Part shown: positions 50,653 through 59,110 of the stretch, in pieces
Numbering within the stretch: the first letter of the stretch is position 1
Layout of the letters: each line of letters begins with the position of its first letter
Assembly (NCBI GenBank): GCA_913041125.1
Contig: CAJWHM010000007.1
Span: 1 to 64,000, forward strand
Length of the DNA: 64,000 bases
Direction of reading: 5' to 3'
Origin: an uncultured Bacteroidota bacterium
GTDB taxonomy: Bacteria > Bacteroidota > Bacteroidia > Flavobacteriales > Flavobacteriaceae
Position numbers and translations under genes: made by a program
Notes under the pieces: generated by a model
Told to the model about the DNA's origin: nothing
What the model saw: the letters and a program-made list of their open reading frames with translations, nothing else
Databases searched by the model: none

Positions 50653-51471
50653 ATGCAGAAATTACCTAAAATTGGATTACCAGTAGTGTTACTATCTATT
50701 GTAATATTAATATTCGTTTCAAAATCTTCAATTAATATTGGATATGGAGAGGCAGGTGTTTTATTTAAAACTTTTGGTGGGGGTGTTGTTACTGATGACG
50801 CTCCATTGGGAGAAGGATTTCATATTATAGCACCATGGAATAAGGTGTTTATTTATAACGTAAAGCAACAAGAATTTTTTGAGGGGAATATGCAAGTACT
50901 CTCATCAAATGGACTTGAAATATCATTAGACGTTTCAGTTTTATATCAGCCTAAATACAATGAATTAGGATTATTACACAAGACAAAAGGAGAGAATTAT
51001 GTGAATATTGTTTTAATACCTCAAATTCGTGCTGTTGCAAGATCAGTTGTTGGAAGATACACTCCTGAACAATTATATTCTACAAAAAGAGATGCAATTC
51101 AAAATGAAATATTTGAGGAAACTGTAAAAAATGTGGAATCCCAACATATACAAGTAAATGCTGTACTTGTAAGAGACGTTACCCTACCAATGGCAATTAA
51201 GGAAGCTATTGAACGTAAACTACGTCAAGAACAAGAAGCTTTAGAATATGAGTTTAGATTGGAAAAAGCAAAACAAGAAGCTGAACGCCAACGTATAGAT
51301 GCAGAGGGTAAAGCTACTGCAAACCGCATTTTAAGTGCATCATTAACCGACAAAATACTTCAAGAAAAAGGAATTGAAGCTACTATCAAGCTATCTGAAT
51401 CTCCAAACTCAAAAGTAATTGTTATAGGAAGTGGGGACGGAGGGCTACCAATTATTCTTGGGAACCAATAA
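50653..51471 (+). CDS. SPFH/prohibitin-family membrane protein
   Basis: 272 residues. An uncleaved N-terminal helix (about 9-24) anchors an SPFH/band 7 domain (25-190: GYGEAGVLFKTFGGGV, VSVLYQPKYNELGLL, VGRYTPEQLYSTKRDAIQNEI). A coiled-coil segment follows, rich in Glu, Arg and Ala (about 195-225: RLEKAKQEAERQRIDAEGKA). This is prohibitin-like architecture; such proteins form large membrane rings that influence proteases and membrane domains. No NfeD partner is adjacent. It follows fabG by 10 nt; the his promoter begins just after its stop. Confidence 0.87.
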   Translation: MQKLPKIGLPVVLLSIVILIFVSKSSINIGYGEAGVLFKTFGGGVVTDDAPLGEGFHIIAPWNKVFIYNVKQQEFFEGNMQVLSSNGLEISLDVSVLYQPKYNELGLLHKTKGENYVNIVLIPQIRAVARSVVGRYTPEQLYSTKRDAIQNEIFEETVKNVESQHIQVNAVLVRDVTLPMAIKEAIERKLRQEQEALEYEFRLEKAKQEAERQRIDAEGKATANRILSASLTDKILQEKGIEATIKLSESPNSKVIVIGSGDGGLPIILGNQ

Positions 51472-51473
51472 GT

Positions 51474-51502
51474 TTGTTAATCAAATATTTTAAATATATT
51501 TG
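51474..51502 (+). promoter_or_regulatory. promoter of the histidine operon
   Basis: TTG at 51474-51476, an 18-nt spacer and TATATTTG at 51495-51502: a full Bacteroidota promoter. Applying the spacing seen at the SRP RNA puts the start site at about 51506-51508, immediately before the leader peptide ATG at 51509. Confidence 0.68.
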
Positions 51503-51508
51503 CACTTT

Positions 51509-51565
51509 ATGAAACAAAAAAAACATCATAATCATCAAAATTTAAATTACTCAAACGTGATTTAG
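51509..51565 (+). CDS. hisL: histidine leader peptide (18 residues)
   Basis: An ATG-to-TAG frame encoding MKQKKHHNHQNLNYSNVI. Codons 6, 7 and 9 are all CAT (His), three within four codons. The gene sits directly after the his promoter and before an intrinsic terminator that precedes hisG. The antiterminator strand is codons 14-17 of this same gene, where a ribosome finishing translation would mask it. The ATG is within a few nt of the predicted transcription start, so translation of the leader would begin without a 5' untranslated region. It has no expected function as a protein; its translation is the sensor for charged tRNA-His. It is too short for routine gene calling. Confidence 0.82.
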   Translation: MKQKKHHNHQNLNYSNVI

Positions 51566-51590
51566 GTAGATGTATTATGTTCTTACACAA

Positions 51591-51620
51591 AACCCGTTTG
51601 AGTGATCAAACGGGTTTTTT
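51591..51620 (+). terminator. intrinsic terminator / attenuator before hisG
   Basis: A perfect 11-bp stem (51591-51601 with 51606-51616), GTGA loop at 51602-51605 and a run of T at 51615-51620, all 12 nt before the hisG ATG. Its upstream arm is shared with the antiterminator. Confidence 0.85.
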
Positions 51621-51631
51621 AATTTAAAATT

Positions 51632-52483
51632 ATGATTAGACTAGCTATACAAAAATCAGGGAGACTTAATAACGATTCTTTAACTCTATTAAAAGATTGT
51701 GGTATTAATATTGAAAATGGAAAAGATCAGCTTAAAACATCTGCTACAAACTTTCCTGTTGAGGTGTTTTTTTTAAGGAATGGTGACATTCCTCAATATT
51801 TAAGGGATGGTGTGGTTGATTTAGCTATTGTTGGAGAAAACTTATTGGAAGAAAAAGGATCTGACTTAGAGATAATTGAGAAATTAGGTTTTTCAAAATG
51901 TAGAGTTTCAATTGCTTTTCCTAAAGAAGTTGAGTTTAAAAGTATAAGTGATCTTAATGGTAAGAGAATTGCAACATCTTATCCAAATACAGTTAAAACA
52001 TTTTTAAAGGAAAATAAAATAAATGCTGAAATACATGTCATTAATGGTTCTGTTGAAATAGCCCCAAATATTGGATTAGCAGATGCAATATGTGATATTG
52101 TTTCTAGTGGCAGTACCTTGTTTAAAAATAATTTAAAAGAGGTTTTGTTAATTGCAAAATCACAAGCTGTATTAGTTAAATCAAATGAATTAACAAATGA
52201 TCAAATTGAAATAGTAAATAAGTTACTTTTTAGGTTAAAATCAGTACTTCGAGCAAAAAAGTCAAGATATATTTTACTTAATGCACCTAATGAAAAAATT
52301 AATGCAATAAGTTCAATTTTACCTGTATTGAAAAGCCCTACAGTACTACCCTTAGCTCAAAAAGGGTGGAGTTCAATGCATTCTGTTATTAATTCAGAAG
52401 ATTTTTGGGAAGTAATTAATCAACTTAAAGAAAATGGAGCAGAAGACATTTTAGTTTGTCCAATAGAAAAAATGGTTCTTTAA
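51632..52483 (+). CDS. hisG: ATP phosphoribosyltransferase, long form
   Basis: 283 residues, the long HisG with a C-terminal ACT-like regulatory domain that usually binds histidine. MIRLAIQKSGRLNNDS at the start, VDLAIVGENLLEE near 62-74, the PRPP loop ADAICDIVSSGSTL near 150-163, and the regulatory domain from about 205 on (APNEKINAISSILPVLKSPTV). It makes phosphoribosyl-ATP, the first step of histidine synthesis. It is the first structural gene after the attenuator; hisD follows with no gap. Confidence 0.96.
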   Translation: MIRLAIQKSGRLNNDSLTLLKDCGINIENGKDQLKTSATNFPVEVFFLRNGDIPQYLRDGVVDLAIVGENLLEEKGSDLEIIEKLGFSKCRVSIAFPKEVEFKSISDLNGKRIATSYPNTVKTFLKENKINAEIHVINGSVEIAPNIGLADAICDIVSSGSTLFKNNLKEVLLIAKSQAVLVKSNELTNDQIEIVNKLLFRLKSVLRAKKSRYILLNAPNEKINAISSILPVLKSPTVLPLAQKGWSSMHSVINSEDFWEVINQLKENGAEDILVCPIEKMVL

Positions 52484-53776
52484 ATGAGAAAAATATTAAA
52501 TCCAAAAGCTGAAAGTTGGGATGAAATAATTAAACGCCCATCTGTAAACTATGAAAATTTACTAGCCTTAGTTTCGGAAGTTTTTGACGAAATTCAAAAA
52601 GTAGGTGACAAAGCAATTTTTGATTACACTAAAAGATTTGATCAAATTCAAATTGAAAACTTAAATGTAACGGAAAATGAAATATCACAAGCTAACAAAT
52701 CAGTACCTAAAAAACTAAAAAAAGCTATTAAGCAGGCTAAGAAAAATATAGAAATATTTCATAAATCTCAGAAAACAAAAACTATTAAGGTTGAGACAAC
52801 TAAGGGTGTAATGTGTTGGCAAAAAAAATATGGAATCGATAAGGTAGGGTTATATATACCGGGAGGTTCAGCCCCTTTATTCTCATCTATTTTAATGTTA
52901 GCAATTCCTGCTAGAATAGCTGGATGTAAAGAAATAATAATATGCTCACCTCCAAATAAAAAAGGAAGTCTACCGGCTGAAATTTTGTATACAGCAAAAC
53001 TTTGTGGAATAAGTAAAATTTTCAAAGTGGGTGGAATACAAGCTATTGCCGGCATGACATTTGGAACCCAAAAAATTCCAAAAGTTTTTAAAATATTTGG
53101 CCCTGGGAATCAATATGTAACTGCAGCAAAGCAACTAGCAACTAAATTCAATGTAGCAATAGATTTACCAGCTGGCCCAAGTGAATTACTTATAGCTGCT
53201 GATGAAACAGCTGACCCTGATTTTATAGCATCAGATCTTTTGTCTCAAGCGGAACATGGATCAGATAGTCAAGTAATTTTAGTAACTACTAAAGAAAGTA
53301 TTATCGAAAAAGTGAACAAATCTATTGCCAAACAATTGGAAAATTTACCAAGAAAAAAAATAGCTGAAAAAGCATTAGCTAATTCCAAAATGATTGTCTT
53401 TAAAAATGATGAAACTGCCACGAGCTTTATCAATGATTACAGCCCGGAACATTATATTATTTGTGTAAAAAATGAATCATACTATCTTAACAGGGTTAGA
53501 AATGCAGGATCTGTATTTATCGGTAATTACACCCCAGAGAGTGCAGGAGATTATGCTTCCGGAACAAATCACACCCTTCCAACAAATGGCTTTGCTAAAC
53601 AATTCAGTGGTGTAAATTTAGATAGTTTTTGTAAAACAATAACTTTTCAAAAAATTTCCAAAACGGGAATAAAAAATTTAGGTGAAAGTGTGGAATTAAT
53701 GGCTGAAGCAGAGGGTTTAATTGCTCATAAAAATGCAATAAGTGTTCGATTAAAAAAAATAAGAGATGAAAACTGA
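52484..53776 (+). CDS. hisD: histidinol dehydrogenase
   Basis: 430 residues. Zinc-dependent enzyme that oxidises histidinol to histidine in two NAD+ steps. Family blocks: GLYIPGGSAPLFSSILM near 123-139, KVFGPGNQYVTAAK-like KIFGPGNQYVTAAKQ near 203-217, DLPAGPSELLI, ASDLLSQAEHGSDSQV with the active-site Glu/His region near 255, NDYSPEHYI, and YASGTNHTLPTNGFAKQFSG near the end. It begins directly after the hisG stop codon and overlaps hisC by 11 bp, indicating tight translational coupling. Confidence 0.97.
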   Translation: MRKILNPKAESWDEIIKRPSVNYENLLALVSEVFDEIQKVGDKAIFDYTKRFDQIQIENLNVTENEISQANKSVPKKLKKAIKQAKKNIEIFHKSQKTKTIKVETTKGVMCWQKKYGIDKVGLYIPGGSAPLFSSILMLAIPARIAGCKEIIICSPPNKKGSLPAEILYTAKLCGISKIFKVGGIQAIAGMTFGTQKIPKVFKIFGPGNQYVTAAKQLATKFNVAIDLPAGPSELLIAADETADPDFIASDLLSQAEHGSDSQVILVTTKESIIEKVNKSIAKQLENLPRKKIAEKALANSKMIVFKNDETATSFINDYSPEHYIICVKNESYYLNRVRNAGSVFIGNYTPESAGDYASGTNHTLPTNGFAKQFSGVNLDSFCKTITFQKISKTGIKNLGESVELMAEAEGLIAHKNAISVRLKKIRDEN

Positions 53777-54815
53777 TATTTCTAAATTTTTTAGAGCAAG
53801 TTTATTAAAACTAAACCCGTATAAATCTGCTCGTGAAGAATATTTAAGCGAGGGACGTGATATGATTTTAATAGATGCAAATGAAAATCCTTTTCAATCC
53901 TCTACGAACAGATATCCTGATCCCTTACAAGGAGAATTGAAACAAAAAATATCTAAATGGAAAAATGTTAATCCGAACCAATTGTATTTAAGTAATGGGA
54001 GTGACGAATTTATAACACAAATTATAATGGCTTGTTGTGAACCAGGTAGGGATGAGATAATGATAGTTCCCCCTACATTTGGCATGTACAAAGTTTCAGC
54101 TCAAATATTAGGTATTGGTATTATTGAAGTTCCTTTGAAGCCAGATTTTAAATTAAATACAAAAGCAATAATAGATTCAGCTAAAGAAAATACCAAATTA
54201 ATATTTATTCCAACCCCAAATAATCCAACAGCAAACAATTTTGATCCAATTGAAATAAAAAAAATTATTAAGTCATTCAATGGAATAGTTGTGATCGATG
54301 AAGCATATATAGAATTTTCAAATCATGAATCATTCACAAAACTTTTAGAATATTACCCCAATTTAGCTGTATGTCAAACATTTTCAAAAGCACAAGGTAT
54401 GGCAGGAGCAAGACTAGGCATGGCATTTGCAAATCCAGACCTTATCAATTACCTAAATAAGTTTAAAGCTCCATATAATTTGAATTCTTTAACTATAAAT
54501 GCTGCATTGAAGAGAATTAATGAACAAGTTCTAGTTAAGAATCAGGTAAAAATTATATTAAAAGAGCGTAAAAAATTAGAAATTTCACTTCGTAAAATTA
54601 AATTCGTTGAATCAGTTTTCCCTTCAGATGCAAATTTCATTCTGATTCGTGTTGATAATAGTTTAAAGCGTTATAAGCAATTATTAGATTATGGCATCGT
54701 TGTAAGGAATTCATCTAAAAATATTTTTTGTGAAAACACATTGCGAATAACCGTAGGTCTAAAAGATGAAAATGAAAAACTACTTTTTGTAATGAGAAAA
54801 ATGGAAAACTTATGA
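53766..54815 (+). CDS. hisC: histidinol-phosphate aminotransferase
   Basis: 349 residues, fold-type I PLP aminotransferase. [11 protein letters not shown] near 35-45, LSNGSDEFI near 76, [11 protein letters not shown] near 148-158, [10 protein letters not shown] near 175, [15 protein letters not shown] with PLP-binding Lys208, and [14 protein letters not shown] near the C-terminus. It transfers an amino group to imidazole-acetol phosphate. It overlaps hisD by 11 bp and hisB by 4 bp (ATGA). Confidence 0.96.
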
Positions 54816-55939
54816 AAAAAATACTTTTTATAGACAGAGACGGAACTCTGGCATTAGAGCCAGAAAATTATCAACTAGATTCATTTGACAAGTTAATTTT
54901 TTATCCTGGAGTTTTTAAATCTTTAGGAAAAATATCAAGAGAATTAGATTTTGAATTGGTAATGGTAACTAACCAAGACGGTTTAGGTACTCCAAGTTTT
55001 CCTGAAAATACATTTTGGCCAACACATAGATTTCTGCTGAAGTGCTTTGAAAATGAAGAAATTATTTTTGATGATATATATATTGACAAAAGCCTTCCTA
55101 GTGATAATGCTCCAACAAGAAAACCTGGAATAGGACTATTAAAAAAATACATTAATAATAAAAACTATGACTTGGCGAATTCATATGTCATAGGGGATCG
55201 ATTAACAGACATGGAACTCGCGTTAAACCTTGGTGCTAAAGGAATTTTTATTTCTAATGATGATAAATTAGTTGAAATGGAAATAAGTGAAAATTTAAAT
55301 AATTCGATATCATTAAAAACTACAAAATGGAATGATATTTATTCTTTTCTAAAATTAAAACAACGTGTAGTTACAAAAAAAAGGGTAACTAATGAAACTA
55401 AGATAAATTTAGTTCTAAATTTAGACGGTAATGGTGAAAGTGATATAAATACAGGCATAGCATTTTTTGATCATATGTTAAATCAAATTGCTCGTCATGG
55501 TAATATGGATATTAAGTTGTCGGTTCATGGAGATTTAGAGGTTGACGAGCACCACACTATTGAAGACACAGCCATTATCCTAGGTGAGGCATTCTATTCA
55601 GCATTAGGAGAAAAAATAGGAATAGAAAGATACGGTTTTTCACTACCAATGGATGATTGCCTAGCAAAAGTATCAATTGATTTTGGAGGGAGGAATTGGT
55701 TAGTCTGGGAAGCAGATTTCAAACGTGAAATGATTGGAAAAATGCCAACAGAAATGTTTATGCATTTCTTTAAATCATTTAGTGATGGAGCTAAAGCAAA
55801 CATAAATATTAAAGCCGAAGGGAGTAATGAGCATCATAAAATTGAAGCTATTTTTAAGGCTTTTGCCAAAGCAATAAAGTTTGCTATTAAGCGTGATCCA
55901 AATAAAATGATATTACCAACAACCAAAGGGAGCTTGTAA
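54812..55939 (+). CDS. hisB: bifunctional histidinol-phosphatase / imidazoleglycerol-phosphate dehydratase
   Basis: 375 residues, HisB fusion. The N-terminal HAD phosphatase (1-170) has FIDRDGTL with Asp8 and Asp10, MVTNQDG near 51, TRKPGIGLL near 102 and [12 protein letters not shown]. The C-terminal dehydratase (about 180-375) has [56 protein letters not shown] with the manganese-binding histidines. In the phosphatase loop where E. coli HisB has a zinc site (Cys, His, Cys, Cys before RKP), the equivalent residues here are Asp92, Ser94, Ala100 and Thr102, so no zinc is bound there. Overlaps hisC by 4 bp. Confidence 0.96.
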
Positions 55940-55944
55940 TTAGT

Positions 55945-56523
55945 ATGGTAGCAATCGTTGATTATAACGCTGGAAATACTCGAAGTCTACAATTTGCATT
56001 AGACCGACTTGGTGTAAATAGCTCACTTACATCTAATATTGAGGAGATTCAAAGTGCTGAAAAAATTATTTTCCCAGGACAAGGTGCTGCCTTAAATGCT
56101 ATGCAAAATCTTAAAAAAAAAGGATTAGATAAAATAATACCAAATTTAAAACAACCTGTTTTAGGTATTTGCCTTGGAATGCAACTTTTATGTCGATCAA
56201 CTGAAGAAGGAAACATAGACTGCTTAGACATAATTTCAACAGATGTAAAAAAAATATCAAATAAGGTTAAAGTACCACATATGGGATGGAATAATATTTC
56301 AAATTTAAAATCACAACTTTTTAATAATGTTATTGATAATGAATTTATGTATTTAGTACATTCTTTTTACGTTCCAATAATACCTGAAACAATTGCTGAA
56401 AGCAATTACAATGGGTTTTTTAGTGTAGCAATACAAAAAAACAACTTTTATGGTGTACAATTCCATCCTGAAAAAAGCAGCAAACCTGGAATTAAAATTT
56501 TAGAAAATTTTTTAACAATATGA
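55945..56523 (+). CDS. hisH: imidazole glycerol phosphate synthase, glutaminase subunit
   Basis: 192 residues, class I glutamine amidotransferase. [14 protein letters not shown] at the N-terminus, IIFPGQGA near 41-48, GICLGMQLL with nucleophile Cys76, and VQFHPEKS with His174 and Glu176 of the triad. It supplies ammonia to HisF. The stop codon overlaps the hisA start by 4 bp (ATGA). Confidence 0.96.
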
Positions 56524-57245
56524 AAATAATTCCAGCAATAGATATTATAGATGGGAAATGCGTTCGTCTTTCAAAAGGAAATTATAATTCACAGATTACA
56601 TACAATCAAAATCCATTAGAAGTTGCAAAAACTTACGAAGACCATGGTATTGAGTTTTTACATTTAGTAGATTTAGATGGAGCTAAATCAAATCATATTA
56701 TAAACTATAGTATTTTAGAGATTATAGCTTCTAAAACGAATTTAAAAATTGACTTCGGTGGTGGTATCAAAACTGAAAATGACGTAAACTTAGCTTTTAA
56801 TTCTGGTGCAAATCAAGTTACATGTGGAAGTGTTGCTGTAAAACAACCAGAGATATTTTGTGATTGGATCTTAAATTATGGGTCTGAAAAAATTATATTA
56901 GGTGCTGATGTTAGAGGTAAGTACGTTGCAACTGATGGTTGGATTAATACATCAAATCAAACAATCTTTGATTTTATAAATTTTTATAAAAACAAAGGTA
57001 TAGAGACGGTAACTTGCACAGATATAAGTAAGGATGGTATGTTGGAAGGACCCTCATTTAAATTATATAGTAAAATTATTGATGCTTACAATATAAATCT
57101 TGTAGCATCAGGAGGAGTTTCAGAATATGATGACATACTAAAACTTGATGATATGGGTTGTTATGGAATTATAATAGGGAAAGCCATATATGAAAATAAA
57201 ATTAGTTTAAAACAATTAGAAAATTTTATTTTAAAACAAAAGTGA
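56520..57245 (+). CDS. hisA: ProFAR isomerase
   Basis: 241 residues, TIM barrel of the HisA type. [17 protein letters not shown] with catalytic Asp8, [12 protein letters not shown] near 48-58, [12 protein letters not shown] near 78, LGADVRGK with catalytic Asp130, [14 protein letters not shown] near 162, and [11 protein letters not shown] near 195. It isomerises ProFAR to PRFAR. It overlaps hisH by 4 bp and the following DinB-like gene by 1 bp. Confidence 0.95.
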
Positions 57246-57751
57246 TGAGTGATTTCATTTATGAATTCAAAAAAAACGCAGTATTTCGAATAAAAGAAGG
57301 TCAAAGAATGGTTCATTTAACATTTGAAAAGACTATAGAGGAGCATATTTGGAAGTTACCTATTTCAAATGGTATTTCATTGGGAAACCAAATTTTACAT
57401 ATAAATGGTAACATGACCCAGTATATCATATCTTCTTTGGGAGAGAATATAGATTATAGAGACCGCGATAAGGAGTTTGAGATAAATAAAAAATATAATA
57501 AAAAAGAATTATTAAAAAAGTTAGACGCTACAATTATTAGCTCTTTAAATGTTATTGATTCAGCAGAGTCTTCAAATTATCTAAAAGTACGTGAAGTACA
57601 AGGGTATAAGCTTTCTGGTATTGGCGTATTATTACATGCCGTAGAACATTTTTCTTATCATGTGGGTCAAATTGCATTTTGGGTTAAATTTCTTACAAAG
57701 ACAGATTTGGAATTTTATAAAGATCAAGATCTAAATCAAAAAAACAATTAA
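57245..57751 (+). CDS. DinB-like protein (DUF1572 family) inside the his operon
   Basis: 168 residues from the ATG at 57245, in a TGATG overlap with the hisA stop; a GTG one codon upstream is possible. It has the four-helix DinB/YfiT-like fold pattern with metal-binding histidines: [11 protein letters not shown] (His52) and [18 protein letters not shown] (His131, His135, His139). DinB-fold proteins include thiol-dependent S-transferases, but the DUF1572 group has no known reaction that I can name. It lies between hisA and hisF (1 nt gap to hisF) with no break in the operon. I recall DUF1572 genes in his operons of related genomes, which would argue for a histidine-linked role. Confidence 0.83.
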
Positions 57752-57752
57752 T

Positions 57753-58508
57753 ATGTTAACCAAAAGAATTATTCCATGCTTAGATATAAAAGATGGACGC
57801 ACAGTTAAAGGAGTAAATTTTAAAAATCTCCGTGATGCAGGAGATCCTGTAGAACTTGCTGAGAAATATGCTAATGAAAAAGCAGACGAATTAGTCTTTT
57901 TGGATATATCTGCAACCGAACAAAAAAGAAAAACATTGTATAAACTCGTTCTAGATGTTGCTGCTTCCTTAGATATACCATTTACTGTAGGTGGAGGAAT
58001 TAAATCAATAAAAGATGTATCTCTTCTTTTAAAAAATGGTGCAGATAAAGTTTCAATAAACAGTTCTGCTGTTTATCGTCCTGAATTGATTAATGAAGTC
58101 TCTACCCATTATGGAAGTCAGTGTCTAGTGGTAGCAATAGATGCAAAAAAAATTAACAATAAATGGAAAGTGCATTTAGTAGGAGGCAAGGTTTCAACAG
58201 ATATTGACCTTTTCAAATGGGCAAAAGAAGTAGAAAGCAGAGGAGCTGGAGAAATACTATTTACCTCAATGGATAATGATGGAACTAAAAATGGATTTGC
58301 TAATGATGCTATAGCTAAATTATCAAATCAACTGAATATTCCTATTATTGCATCGGGAGGAGCTGGTACTGAGGAACATTTTAAAGAAACATTTACAGTT
58401 GGAAAAGCAGATGCAGCTCTTGCGGCAAGTGTTTTTCACTTTGGTAAAATCAGTATTCCTTCATTAAAAAATAAATTAAAAAGACAGAATATTGCTGTAA
58501 GAATCTAA
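57753..58508 (+). CDS. hisF: imidazole glycerol phosphate synthase, cyclase subunit
   Basis: 251 residues, TIM barrel. [19 protein letters not shown] with Asp11, [13 protein letters not shown] near 48, [14 protein letters not shown] near 77, VVAIDAKK with Asp130, [15 protein letters not shown] near 168, and [13 protein letters not shown] near 195. It uses ammonia from HisH to make imidazole glycerol phosphate and AICAR. It starts 1 nt after the DinB-like gene and is followed by hisIE after 5 nt. Confidence 0.97.
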
Positions 58509-58513
58509 CAAAT

Positions 58514-59110
58514 ATGAAACTAAATTTTTCAAAATCACTTGACAAGTTAATACCCGCCATTATACAAGATAATACAACAAAAAAAGTTTTAATGCTCGGA
58601 TATATGAACGATGAAGCTCTCAACATAACAAAAAAAACAAAAAAAGTAACCTTCTATAGTAGATCAAAAAAAAGATTGTGGACAAAAGGTGAGGAGAGTG
58701 GAAATTACTTGAAGCTTATTACACTGAAGGAAGATTGTGATAAGGATGCATTATTAATTCAAGTTGAACCAATAGGTCCAACGTGTCACACGGGAAATGA
58801 TACATGTTGGGGAGAGTTAAATAATAGTCATTTTGGATTTTTTTCAGAATTAGAAAATATAATTTCCAATCGTAAAACATCAAATCTAGATAGCAGCTAT
58901 ATTTCTTCATTATTTAATGAGGGTATAAATAAAATTGCTCAAAAAGTCGGAGAAGAAGCAGTTGAAACAATTATTGAAGCTAAAGATGATAATACAGAGC
59001 AGTTTTTAAACGAAAGTGCGGACTTATTATTTCATTTGTTGGTTTTGCTTCAAGCAAAAGGATTTAAACTTAATGACATTGAAAGAATATTATTAAATAG
59101 AAAAAAATAA
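58514..59110 (+). CDS. hisI: bifunctional phosphoribosyl-AMP cyclohydrolase / phosphoribosyl-ATP pyrophosphatase
   Basis: 198 residues, the HisIE fusion. HisI part (1-105): MLGYMNDEAL near 27-36, TFYSRSKKRLWTKGE near 46-60, the magnesium/zinc site DCDKDA (Cys75, Asp76, Asp78), and PTCHTGNDTCW with Cys91 and Cys98. HisE part (about 110-198): a MazG-like helical domain with KVGEEAVETIIEAKDDN near 147-163 and NESADLLFHLLVLLQAKG. It carries out the second and third steps of the pathway and closes the operon. No terminator hairpin is evident downstream. Confidence 0.96.
   Translation: MKLNFSKSLDKLIPAIIQDNTTKKVLMLGYMNDEALNITKKTKKVTFYSRSKKRLWTKGEESGNYLKLITLKEDCDKDALLIQVEPIGPTCHTGNDTCWGELNNSHFGFFSELENIISNRKTSNLDSSYISSLFNEGINKIAQKVGEEAVETIIEAKDDNTEQFLNESADLLFHLLVLLQAKGFKLNDIERILLNRKK

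Follow-up and report, generated by a model that had tools for sequence, protein, structure and literature searches.

A probable ribosome-mediated histidine attenuator ahead of the his operon in Flavobacteriaceae and its conservation among related bacteria

The his operon in the 64,000-nucleotide stretch of flavobacterial DNA analysed here (hereafter, the window) is preceded by a leader that is very probably a ribosome-mediated transcription attenuator, a function that we infer from sequence comparison and RNA folding. The window contains clustered codons for the cognate amino acid, a terminator, a mutually exclusive antiterminator pairing, a spacing that suits a ribosome, and the cognate biosynthetic operon. 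The mechanism originally predicted for this locus, in which a His leader peptide, a terminator, and a competing antiterminator would act together, is well supported by the comparison of sequences among relatives.

Organization of the leader and the his operon

The leader gene MKQKKHHNHQNLNYSNVI is located on the forward strand at positions 51509–51565 and has 18 codons, from the ATG at 51509–51511 to the TAG stop codon at 51563–51565. Its codons 6–9, CAT CAT AAT CAT (51524–51535), are the regulatory codons, with three His in four. Direct reading bears out the original prediction on this point, and also on the 9-nt exact complementarity between a strand inside the leader gene (S2, ACTCAAACG, 51549–51557), the 5′ strand of the antiterminator, and the stretch CGTTTGAGT at 51595–51603; a T–G pair (51548/51604) lengthens this complementarity from 9 to 10. 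The 5′ arm of the terminator, S3 (51589–51601), pairs over 13 bp with the 3′ arm, S4 (51606–51618); S3 also pairs with S2 over 51595–51603, for which the adjoining loop base(s) up to 51603 are included. In both the sequence and the fold, the terminator hairpin (51589–51618) is a perfect 13-bp stem with the loop GTGA, and a run of six T follows at 51615–51620. The terminator had been described as perfect and as ending 11 nt before hisG, which is correct (the T-run ends at 51620, and the hisG ATG begins at 51632), but its stem is 2 bp longer than the 11 bp claimed. Two further strands are tentative and were taken from the predicted fold without a ribosome: S1, the His-codon region (51527–51536), and its possible partner S1′ (51569–51579), with a bulge at 51573. 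Among 2000 dinucleotide-preserving shuffles of positions 51472–51631, four contained a short ORF with three His among four codons, whereas none contained a perfect stem of at least 11 bp with a T-run, and none (0/2000) contained both the His cluster and the stem. The fold energy of positions 51508–51620 had a z value of −6.7 relative to shuffles.

The first gene of the presumed operon, hisG (51632–52483, forward strand; Pfam HisG and HisG_C), starts 66 nt after the leader stop codon. It is followed on the same strand (52484–59110) by hisD, hisC, hisB (a HAD–IGPD fusion), hisH, hisA, a DUF1572/DinB-like gene, hisF, and hisIE, identified as ORFs and, except for hisIE, with Pfam. The names hisC and hisH and the split between hisA and hisF are presumed from domain and gene order, and the last gene (58514–59110) is presumed to be hisIE. 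The DUF1572/DinB-family gene (57242–57751), which has a GTG start, sits between hisA and hisF. Upstream of the leader, an SPFH/Band 7 gene ends at 51471. Elsewhere in the window, a small SRP RNA (RF04183, 22392–22498, 107.4 bits) was the only match listed at the Rfam gathering level.

Conservation of the leader among relatives

To the best 30 hisG loci of a family search, which found hisG in 250 of 299 genomes, we added the best 80 loci among the matches listed in a scan of named genome contigs and 20 further hand-picked family loci. The 80 loci were placed in the family by their high identity and their titles, which were mostly Flavobacteriaceae and in some cases just 'Bacteroidetes' or 'Flavobacteriales'. 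After 12 duplicates were removed, 118 distinct upstream regions remained, which are referred to here as close relatives. The order set comprised 19 regions, hand-picked as 20 from 52 non-family genomes with hisG and reduced by one duplicate, and the class set comprised 40 regions hand-picked from 62 genomes of other orders. An alignment (A1) with misoriented or misplaced rows (L003, L004, L009, and L067) was kept out of the counts.

The leader was defined, at a lenient threshold, by a short ORF with two or more His among six codons and, behind it, a terminator-like hairpin. This combination was present in 117 of the 118 close relatives, in 18 of the 19 order regions, and in 30 of the 40 class regions, the latter two sets being hand-picked. 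The original prediction had named hisG upstream regions without His codons as evidence against it; among the close relatives, the His ORF by itself was found in all 118 distinct regions, and in L012, the sole region in which the combination was missed, the hairpin was present in an earlier, differently built search. At greater distances, the His ORF was absent from one order region and five class regions, and five class regions had the ORF and no hairpin; some of the class-level matches may have arisen by chance. The value of 18/19 overstates the order as sampled, because a family with 0.6-Mb genomes (f15), which makes up 19 of the 52 order genomes, is represented just by L120, the one f15 locus examined, where hisG is present and no His leader was found. 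The His codons in the close relatives were 274 CAT vs. 26 CAC (89 of 117 loci scored). In other classes of the phylum, an ORF with at least three His in six codons was detected in 11 of 20 loci picked out of the 128 matches from a 148-genome search; family f82, which contributed 30 of those 128 matches, was represented by one locus, which had no such His-rich ORF.

Some individual loci showed deviating arrangements. The leaders of L153 and L159 are His-rich and have no terminator by the hairpin test, and their last codons (TCCTCT and TCCTCC, respectively) have their complement in a GGAGGA that lies at the stop codon or immediately behind it; these leaders are perhaps a translational variant. 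Inverted repeat-like inserts were found between the terminator and hisG in L024 / L087 and L178, with the attenuator intact.

A covariance model was constructed from the sequences and terminator pairs of 30 close-relative leaders and run on 120 genomes of the family, each from a different genus and some of them also the origin of training rows (match: E ≤0.001). This search across relatives, which had been proposed together with the original prediction, matched the leader element in 107 of the 120 genomes, mostly tracking hisG. Among the 13 genomes without a model match, 12 had no hisG match in the hisG search (eleven were listed without hisG, and G122 was absent from the hisG list), and G666 was outside that search. 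A model match without a hisG match was seen in four of the 107 genomes, namely G027, with an apparent relic, and G105, G116, and G128, with weak matches; G027 and G105 were listed without hisG, and G116 and G128 were missing from the hisG list. In eight genomes compared by eye (G001, G011, G020, G032, G052, G096, G102, and G131), the match was directly upstream of hisG. Several genomes had a second model match, mostly weak and in some cases the opposite strand of the same hairpin, and in the window's own genome the window element was the only strong match. On the minus strand of L217 (G027, ~2200–2530), a his attenuator was recognized by eye, with a hisG behind it that breaks off after approximately two dozen codons; from its sequence, this attenuator is apparently a relic left after the loss of hisG. 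In L218 (G052, ~500–680), a GCCCGTTTGA hairpin with no His ORF occurs behind an SPFH gene, the place taken by the attenuator in the window, and the hisG of G052 is on another contig. This hairpin is possibly a relic that remained after the operon moved.

Predicted promoter and near-leaderless leader gene

A −7 promoter box, TATATTTG, with the consensus TAnnTTTG is located at positions 51495–51502 of the forward strand, and the TTTG at 51473–51476, 18 nt before the box, is a candidate −33 element. In Flavobacterium psychrophilum, the box consensus extends from −12 to −5 (PMC9723704), so transcription in the window is predicted to start at 51507. The leader gene would then be near-leaderless, with a predicted 5′ UTR of ~2 nt. 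For comparison, the median 5′ UTR reported for F. psychrophilum is 24 nt, and leaderless mRNAs account for 5.5% (PMC9723704). A recognizable −7 box preceded the leader in 91 of the 118 close relatives, with a predicted 5′ UTR of ≤5 nt in 63 of the 91 and a longer one in 28; a box at near-leaderless spacing is expected by chance in ~0.8% according to simple shuffles. Among the more distant loci with a box, a 5′ UTR of ≤5 nt was predicted for 3 of 15 in the order and 9 of 25 in the class.

Inspection by eye of the window's own genome revealed two other leaders of this general appearance. One, on the minus strand of contig C2 (L191; 94942–95691 and upstream), consists of a Trp leader, MKNYNVKSWWHNNDS, and a terminator before a chorismate-binding (trpE-like) gene, with a TAnnTTTG 6 nt before its ATG, a spacing equal to that of the his leader. 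The other, on the minus strand of contig C11 (L194; 44770–45303 and upstream), is a short ORF rich in Phe and Tyr, MNNTNLFYSNYFYFFLEVKGDL, with a terminator-like hairpin behind it; this ORF and its hairpin precede a prephenate dehydratase gene and may be compared with the pheA element named in PMC9723704.

Covariation of the antiterminator and the terminator

In the swap test of the S2:S3 antiterminator across 48 order and class loci, the own partner scored 16.8 and swapped partners 12.6 (z = 10.0; decoys 0.2–2.7), and the close relatives gave a z value of 3.4 (decoys −1.7 to −0.4). No signal was obtained within the window clade (29 loci, z = −1.7), because S2 and S3 scarcely vary there. Among the order and class loci, the hairpin sequence differs between lineages, and the competing pairing that had been predicted changes in step, which it does not do measurably within the window clade. 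A fixed-structure count over 30 rows found 95.3% paired cells for S2:S3, with double changes not in excess (202 of 500 shuffles were as high), and 99.4% paired cells for the terminator. The swap test of S3:S4 yielded z values of 20.8 and 18.7. In the per-locus shuffle test of S2:S3, p was ≤0.05 in 88 of 117 close, 13 of 18 order, and 16 of 30 class loci. RNAalifold applied to 26 window-clade rows recovered the terminator, and when the rows were cut before S4, it recovered the S2:S3 antiterminator helix. A candidate extension helix, formed by the segments flanking S2 and S3, had a z value of 7.0 in the close relatives but with a decoy at 3.8, and its z value of 4.4 in the order and class loci was below a decoy at 6.6, so it is not claimed.

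The position of S2 relative to the leader reading frame is not fixed. A motif search placed S2 in 89 of the 117 close-relative loci (the other 28 were not placed), of which 31 had it in frame 0, 54 in frame 2, and two in frame 1; in the remaining two it lay past the stop codon. This difference in frame between lineages points to selection on S2 as RNA.

These data bear on another possible reading of the locus, namely that the hairpin simply ends transcription of the SPFH/Band 7 gene upstream and that the His-rich ORF is coincidental. Such a role would fit the end of that gene at 51471 and the similar hairpin in G052, which follows an SPFH gene with no His ORF present, hisG being on a different contig. 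However, the −7 box and the His ORF separate the SPFH gene from the hairpin in the window, the ORF is present in 118 of 118 close relatives, including L062, where no SPFH gene end was seen by eye in the flank. Moreover, S2:S3 covaries in distant loci, and 0 of 2000 shuffles contained both parts. We consider a coincidental ORF before an SPFH terminator extremely improbable, and the hairpin is discussed below as the terminator of a his attenuator.

Ribosome geometry and proposed mechanism

Across the 89 loci, the start of S2 lies at a median distance of 16 nt (5–95%: 11–18) downstream of the first base in the final His codon and 10 nt (10–13.6) upstream of the stop codon. This tight spacing is as expected if S2 is left free by a stalled ribosome and masked by one that has reached the stop codon. 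When the window RNA was folded with a ribosome masking any of the three His codons, 9 of 9 S2:S3 pairs formed before S4 was made, in contrast to 0 of 9 with the ribosome at the stop codon or absent. In the 117 close relatives, at least six S3 bases paired back into the leader in 112 loci with the ribosome at the first His codon vs. 12 with the ribosome at the stop codon; the corresponding differences were weaker in the order (15/18 vs. 6/18) and the class (18/30 vs. 4/30). At equilibrium, the full-length window RNA adopts the terminator fold even with a stalled ribosome, and antitermination must therefore be kinetic.

The proposed mechanism is as follows. RNA polymerase would start ~2 nt ahead of the leader ATG, and a ribosome would start translating the leader gene nearly at the 5′ terminus of the transcript. 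When charged tRNA-His is scarce, the ribosome would stall on the CAT codons, leaving S2 (51549–51557) free to capture S3, the 5′ arm of the terminator, as it emerges, and the polymerase would continue into hisG. When histidine is plentiful, the ribosome would reach the stop codon and cover S2, the S3:S4 terminator would form, and transcription would stop near 51620; the leader would thus respond to histidine through the position of the ribosome. If the leader is not translated, termination is predicted in the window via the His-codon hairpin S1:S1′, which is the least certain step.

In the trp attenuator, the 1:2 hairpin favours the terminator when the leader is untranslated. In the minimum free energy fold of the window without a ribosome, S1:S1′ forms 10 of 10 pairs and S2 is enclosed in the hairpin. 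The swap test of S1:S1′ gave z values of 6.5 in the close relatives and 5.0 in the order and class loci, with its own decoys reaching 2.2; in the swap tests of other strand pairs, decoys came to 5.4 for reversed S3:S4 and 6.6 for the extension helix, and a z value near 5 is therefore no proof. The window clade gave a z value of 0.1 and the window alone a p value of 0.48, and RNAalifold found nothing in the 26 window-clade rows cut before S3, and hence no His-codon hairpin. The per-locus shuffle test had p ≤0.05 in 9 of 117, 7 of 18, and 4 of 29 loci (20 of 164 in all). Furthermore, S3 still pairs with the leader without a ribosome (an equilibrium antiterminator) in 83 of 117 close relatives, which means that a protector hairpin is not generally effective. 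A His-codon protector hairpin is plausible for the window, and its generality is uncertain.

The region upstream of hisG might also be a histidine- or tRNA-binding RNA (a T-box or riboswitch) in which the ORF is incidental, and the his genes of Firmicutes are indeed described as being under His T-boxes (PMC9413887). However, neither kind of element was among the Rfam matches at the gathering level or among the 18 matches at E ≤10 on 51450–51700, all of which were under their gathering scores, and the His ORF and the spacing of S2 suit a ribosome. The probability of a ligand-binding RNA is therefore very small, and attenuation by a translating ribosome remains our reading. The Rfam family His_leader (RF00514) likewise had no match at gathering or at E ≤10 on 51450–51700, and a sub-threshold Trp_leader match on the same stretch reached 15.9 bits (gathering 41; E = 0.93).

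Attenuation needs a ribosome close behind RNA polymerase. Shine–Dalgarno sequences are reported to be lacking in these bacteria (PMC9723704), so the element provides a direct test of transcription–translation coupling without Shine–Dalgarno sequences on a predicted nearly leaderless RNA.

A further strand near the hisG start in relatives

In relatives, a further strand (S5), which in most matches is located 13–24 nt upstream of the hisG start, pairs over ~8–12 bp with the 5′ arm and loop of the terminator, and its sequence varies together with that of the loop. With spacers of at least 30 nt, the close relatives had S5 (at least 8 bp, with both the arm and the loop) in 36 of 61 loci, the order in 7 of 14, and the class in 2 of 13. 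Three extra matches in short spacers (L031, L054, and L074) are probably chance. The per-locus shuffle test of pairing with the arm and loop, at any spacer length, had p ≤0.05 in 32 of 117, 10 of 18, and 2 of 30 loci. The swap test gave z values of 11.9 (57 close relatives) and 5.9 (26 order and class loci), with its own decoys up to 2.2, and the loop part of S5 formed 3.15 of 4 pairs vs. 2.24 when permuted (z = 9.4; 66 anchored loci). The closeness of the S5 helix to the region where ribosomes would enter hisG is suggestive of translational control. It is conceivable, although we rate it at slightly less than an even chance, that part of the lineage uses a three-partner switch, in which S3 would choose among the antiterminator, the terminator, and an S5 helix at the hisG ribosome entry site, adding translational control. 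No S5 strand was found in the window, where just 11 nt lie between the T-run and hisG; if the three-partner switch exists, the window would have lost, or never had, the translational layer.

Another possible reading is that the leader peptide acts mainly on hisG translation, by translational attenuation or reinitiation, rather than on transcription termination. The five of 40 class loci that have a His ORF without a terminator by the hairpin test, and the pairing of the strand near hisG with the switch in relatives, are in its favour. Yet the window hairpin has the standard form of an intrinsic terminator, including six T, the leader stop codon is 66 nt from hisG, and the terminator is kept in 117 of 118 close relatives. 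A mainly translational action is accordingly quite improbable, if a shade less so than the two explanations weighed above, and transcription attenuation remains the preferred reading for the window.

Comparison with known systems

The enterobacterial his leader consists of a leader peptide with His codons, a competing antiterminator, and an intrinsic terminator before hisG. The window leader resembles it in having a His-codon leader peptide and an antiterminator set against a terminator ahead of hisG, and differs in having three His codons and a leader gene predicted to be near-leaderless. In contrast to the enterobacterial layout, S2 in the window is inside the His-codon hairpin, not an arm, in the predicted fold without a ribosome. 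In mycobacteria, leaderless cysteine attenuators have a leader gene whose translation begins directly at the RNA 5′ end. In this they resemble the leader predicted for the window, whereas the amino acid, the gene, and the phylum differ. A comparative study by Vitreschak and colleagues (2004, FEMS Microbiol Lett) reportedly mentions candidate attenuators in Bacteroidetes/Chlorobi in its abstract.

The His_leader family RF00514 is listed in a 2013 survey, which suggests that such attenuators may stem from gamma-proteobacteria with very few transfers (PMC3766115). A 2010 paper adds Firmicutes to Proteobacteria and Actinobacteria, until then the only groups in which, as far as its authors knew, leader-peptide systems had been demonstrated (PMC2965389). 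In Firmicutes, candidate His attenuators have been described in the Bacillus cereus group, Eubacteriales, and Erysipelotrichales (PMC9413887); like the window, these have a His leader peptide and a terminator/antiterminator before the his operon, in another phylum. For Bacteroidota, one source describes possible leader peptides in Bacteroides, with no mention of hisG in the portions available (PMC7366714), and another treats the his genes of the phylum, with no leader mentioned in the corresponding portions (PMC8305728).

The closest precedent is the 2021 transcriptome paper on F. psychrophilum, which gives strong clues for leader-peptide attenuation upstream of amino acid operons and includes hisG among structured 5′ elements that are conserved in other genera of Flavobacteriaceae and have no Rfam match (PMC9723704). 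This element resembles that of the window in the gene concerned, in occurring in a flavobacterium, and in the absence of an Rfam match, and the available portions of its main text specify neither His codons nor strands nor a mechanism for hisG (PMC9723704). The two elements are likely identical. Beyond this paper, no description of a hisG mechanism in Bacteroidota was found in the open-access literature searched. The suggestion in the original prediction that the attenuator could be new for the lineage thus stands for its anatomy, extent, and covariation, but not for attenuation or the hisG element as such, which had already been noticed in F. psychrophilum (PMC9723704). His-codon attenuation appears to be widespread before hisG in a group often omitted from surveys of attenuation, and a covariance model is now available for an element unmatched in Rfam 15. 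In sum, attenuators of this kind are known, and their presence in the lineage had been suspected before; what is added here to the known systems is the anatomy and its extent beyond the family, the covariation, the predicted near-leaderless leader gene, the tentative protector pairing, and the S5 strand in relatives.
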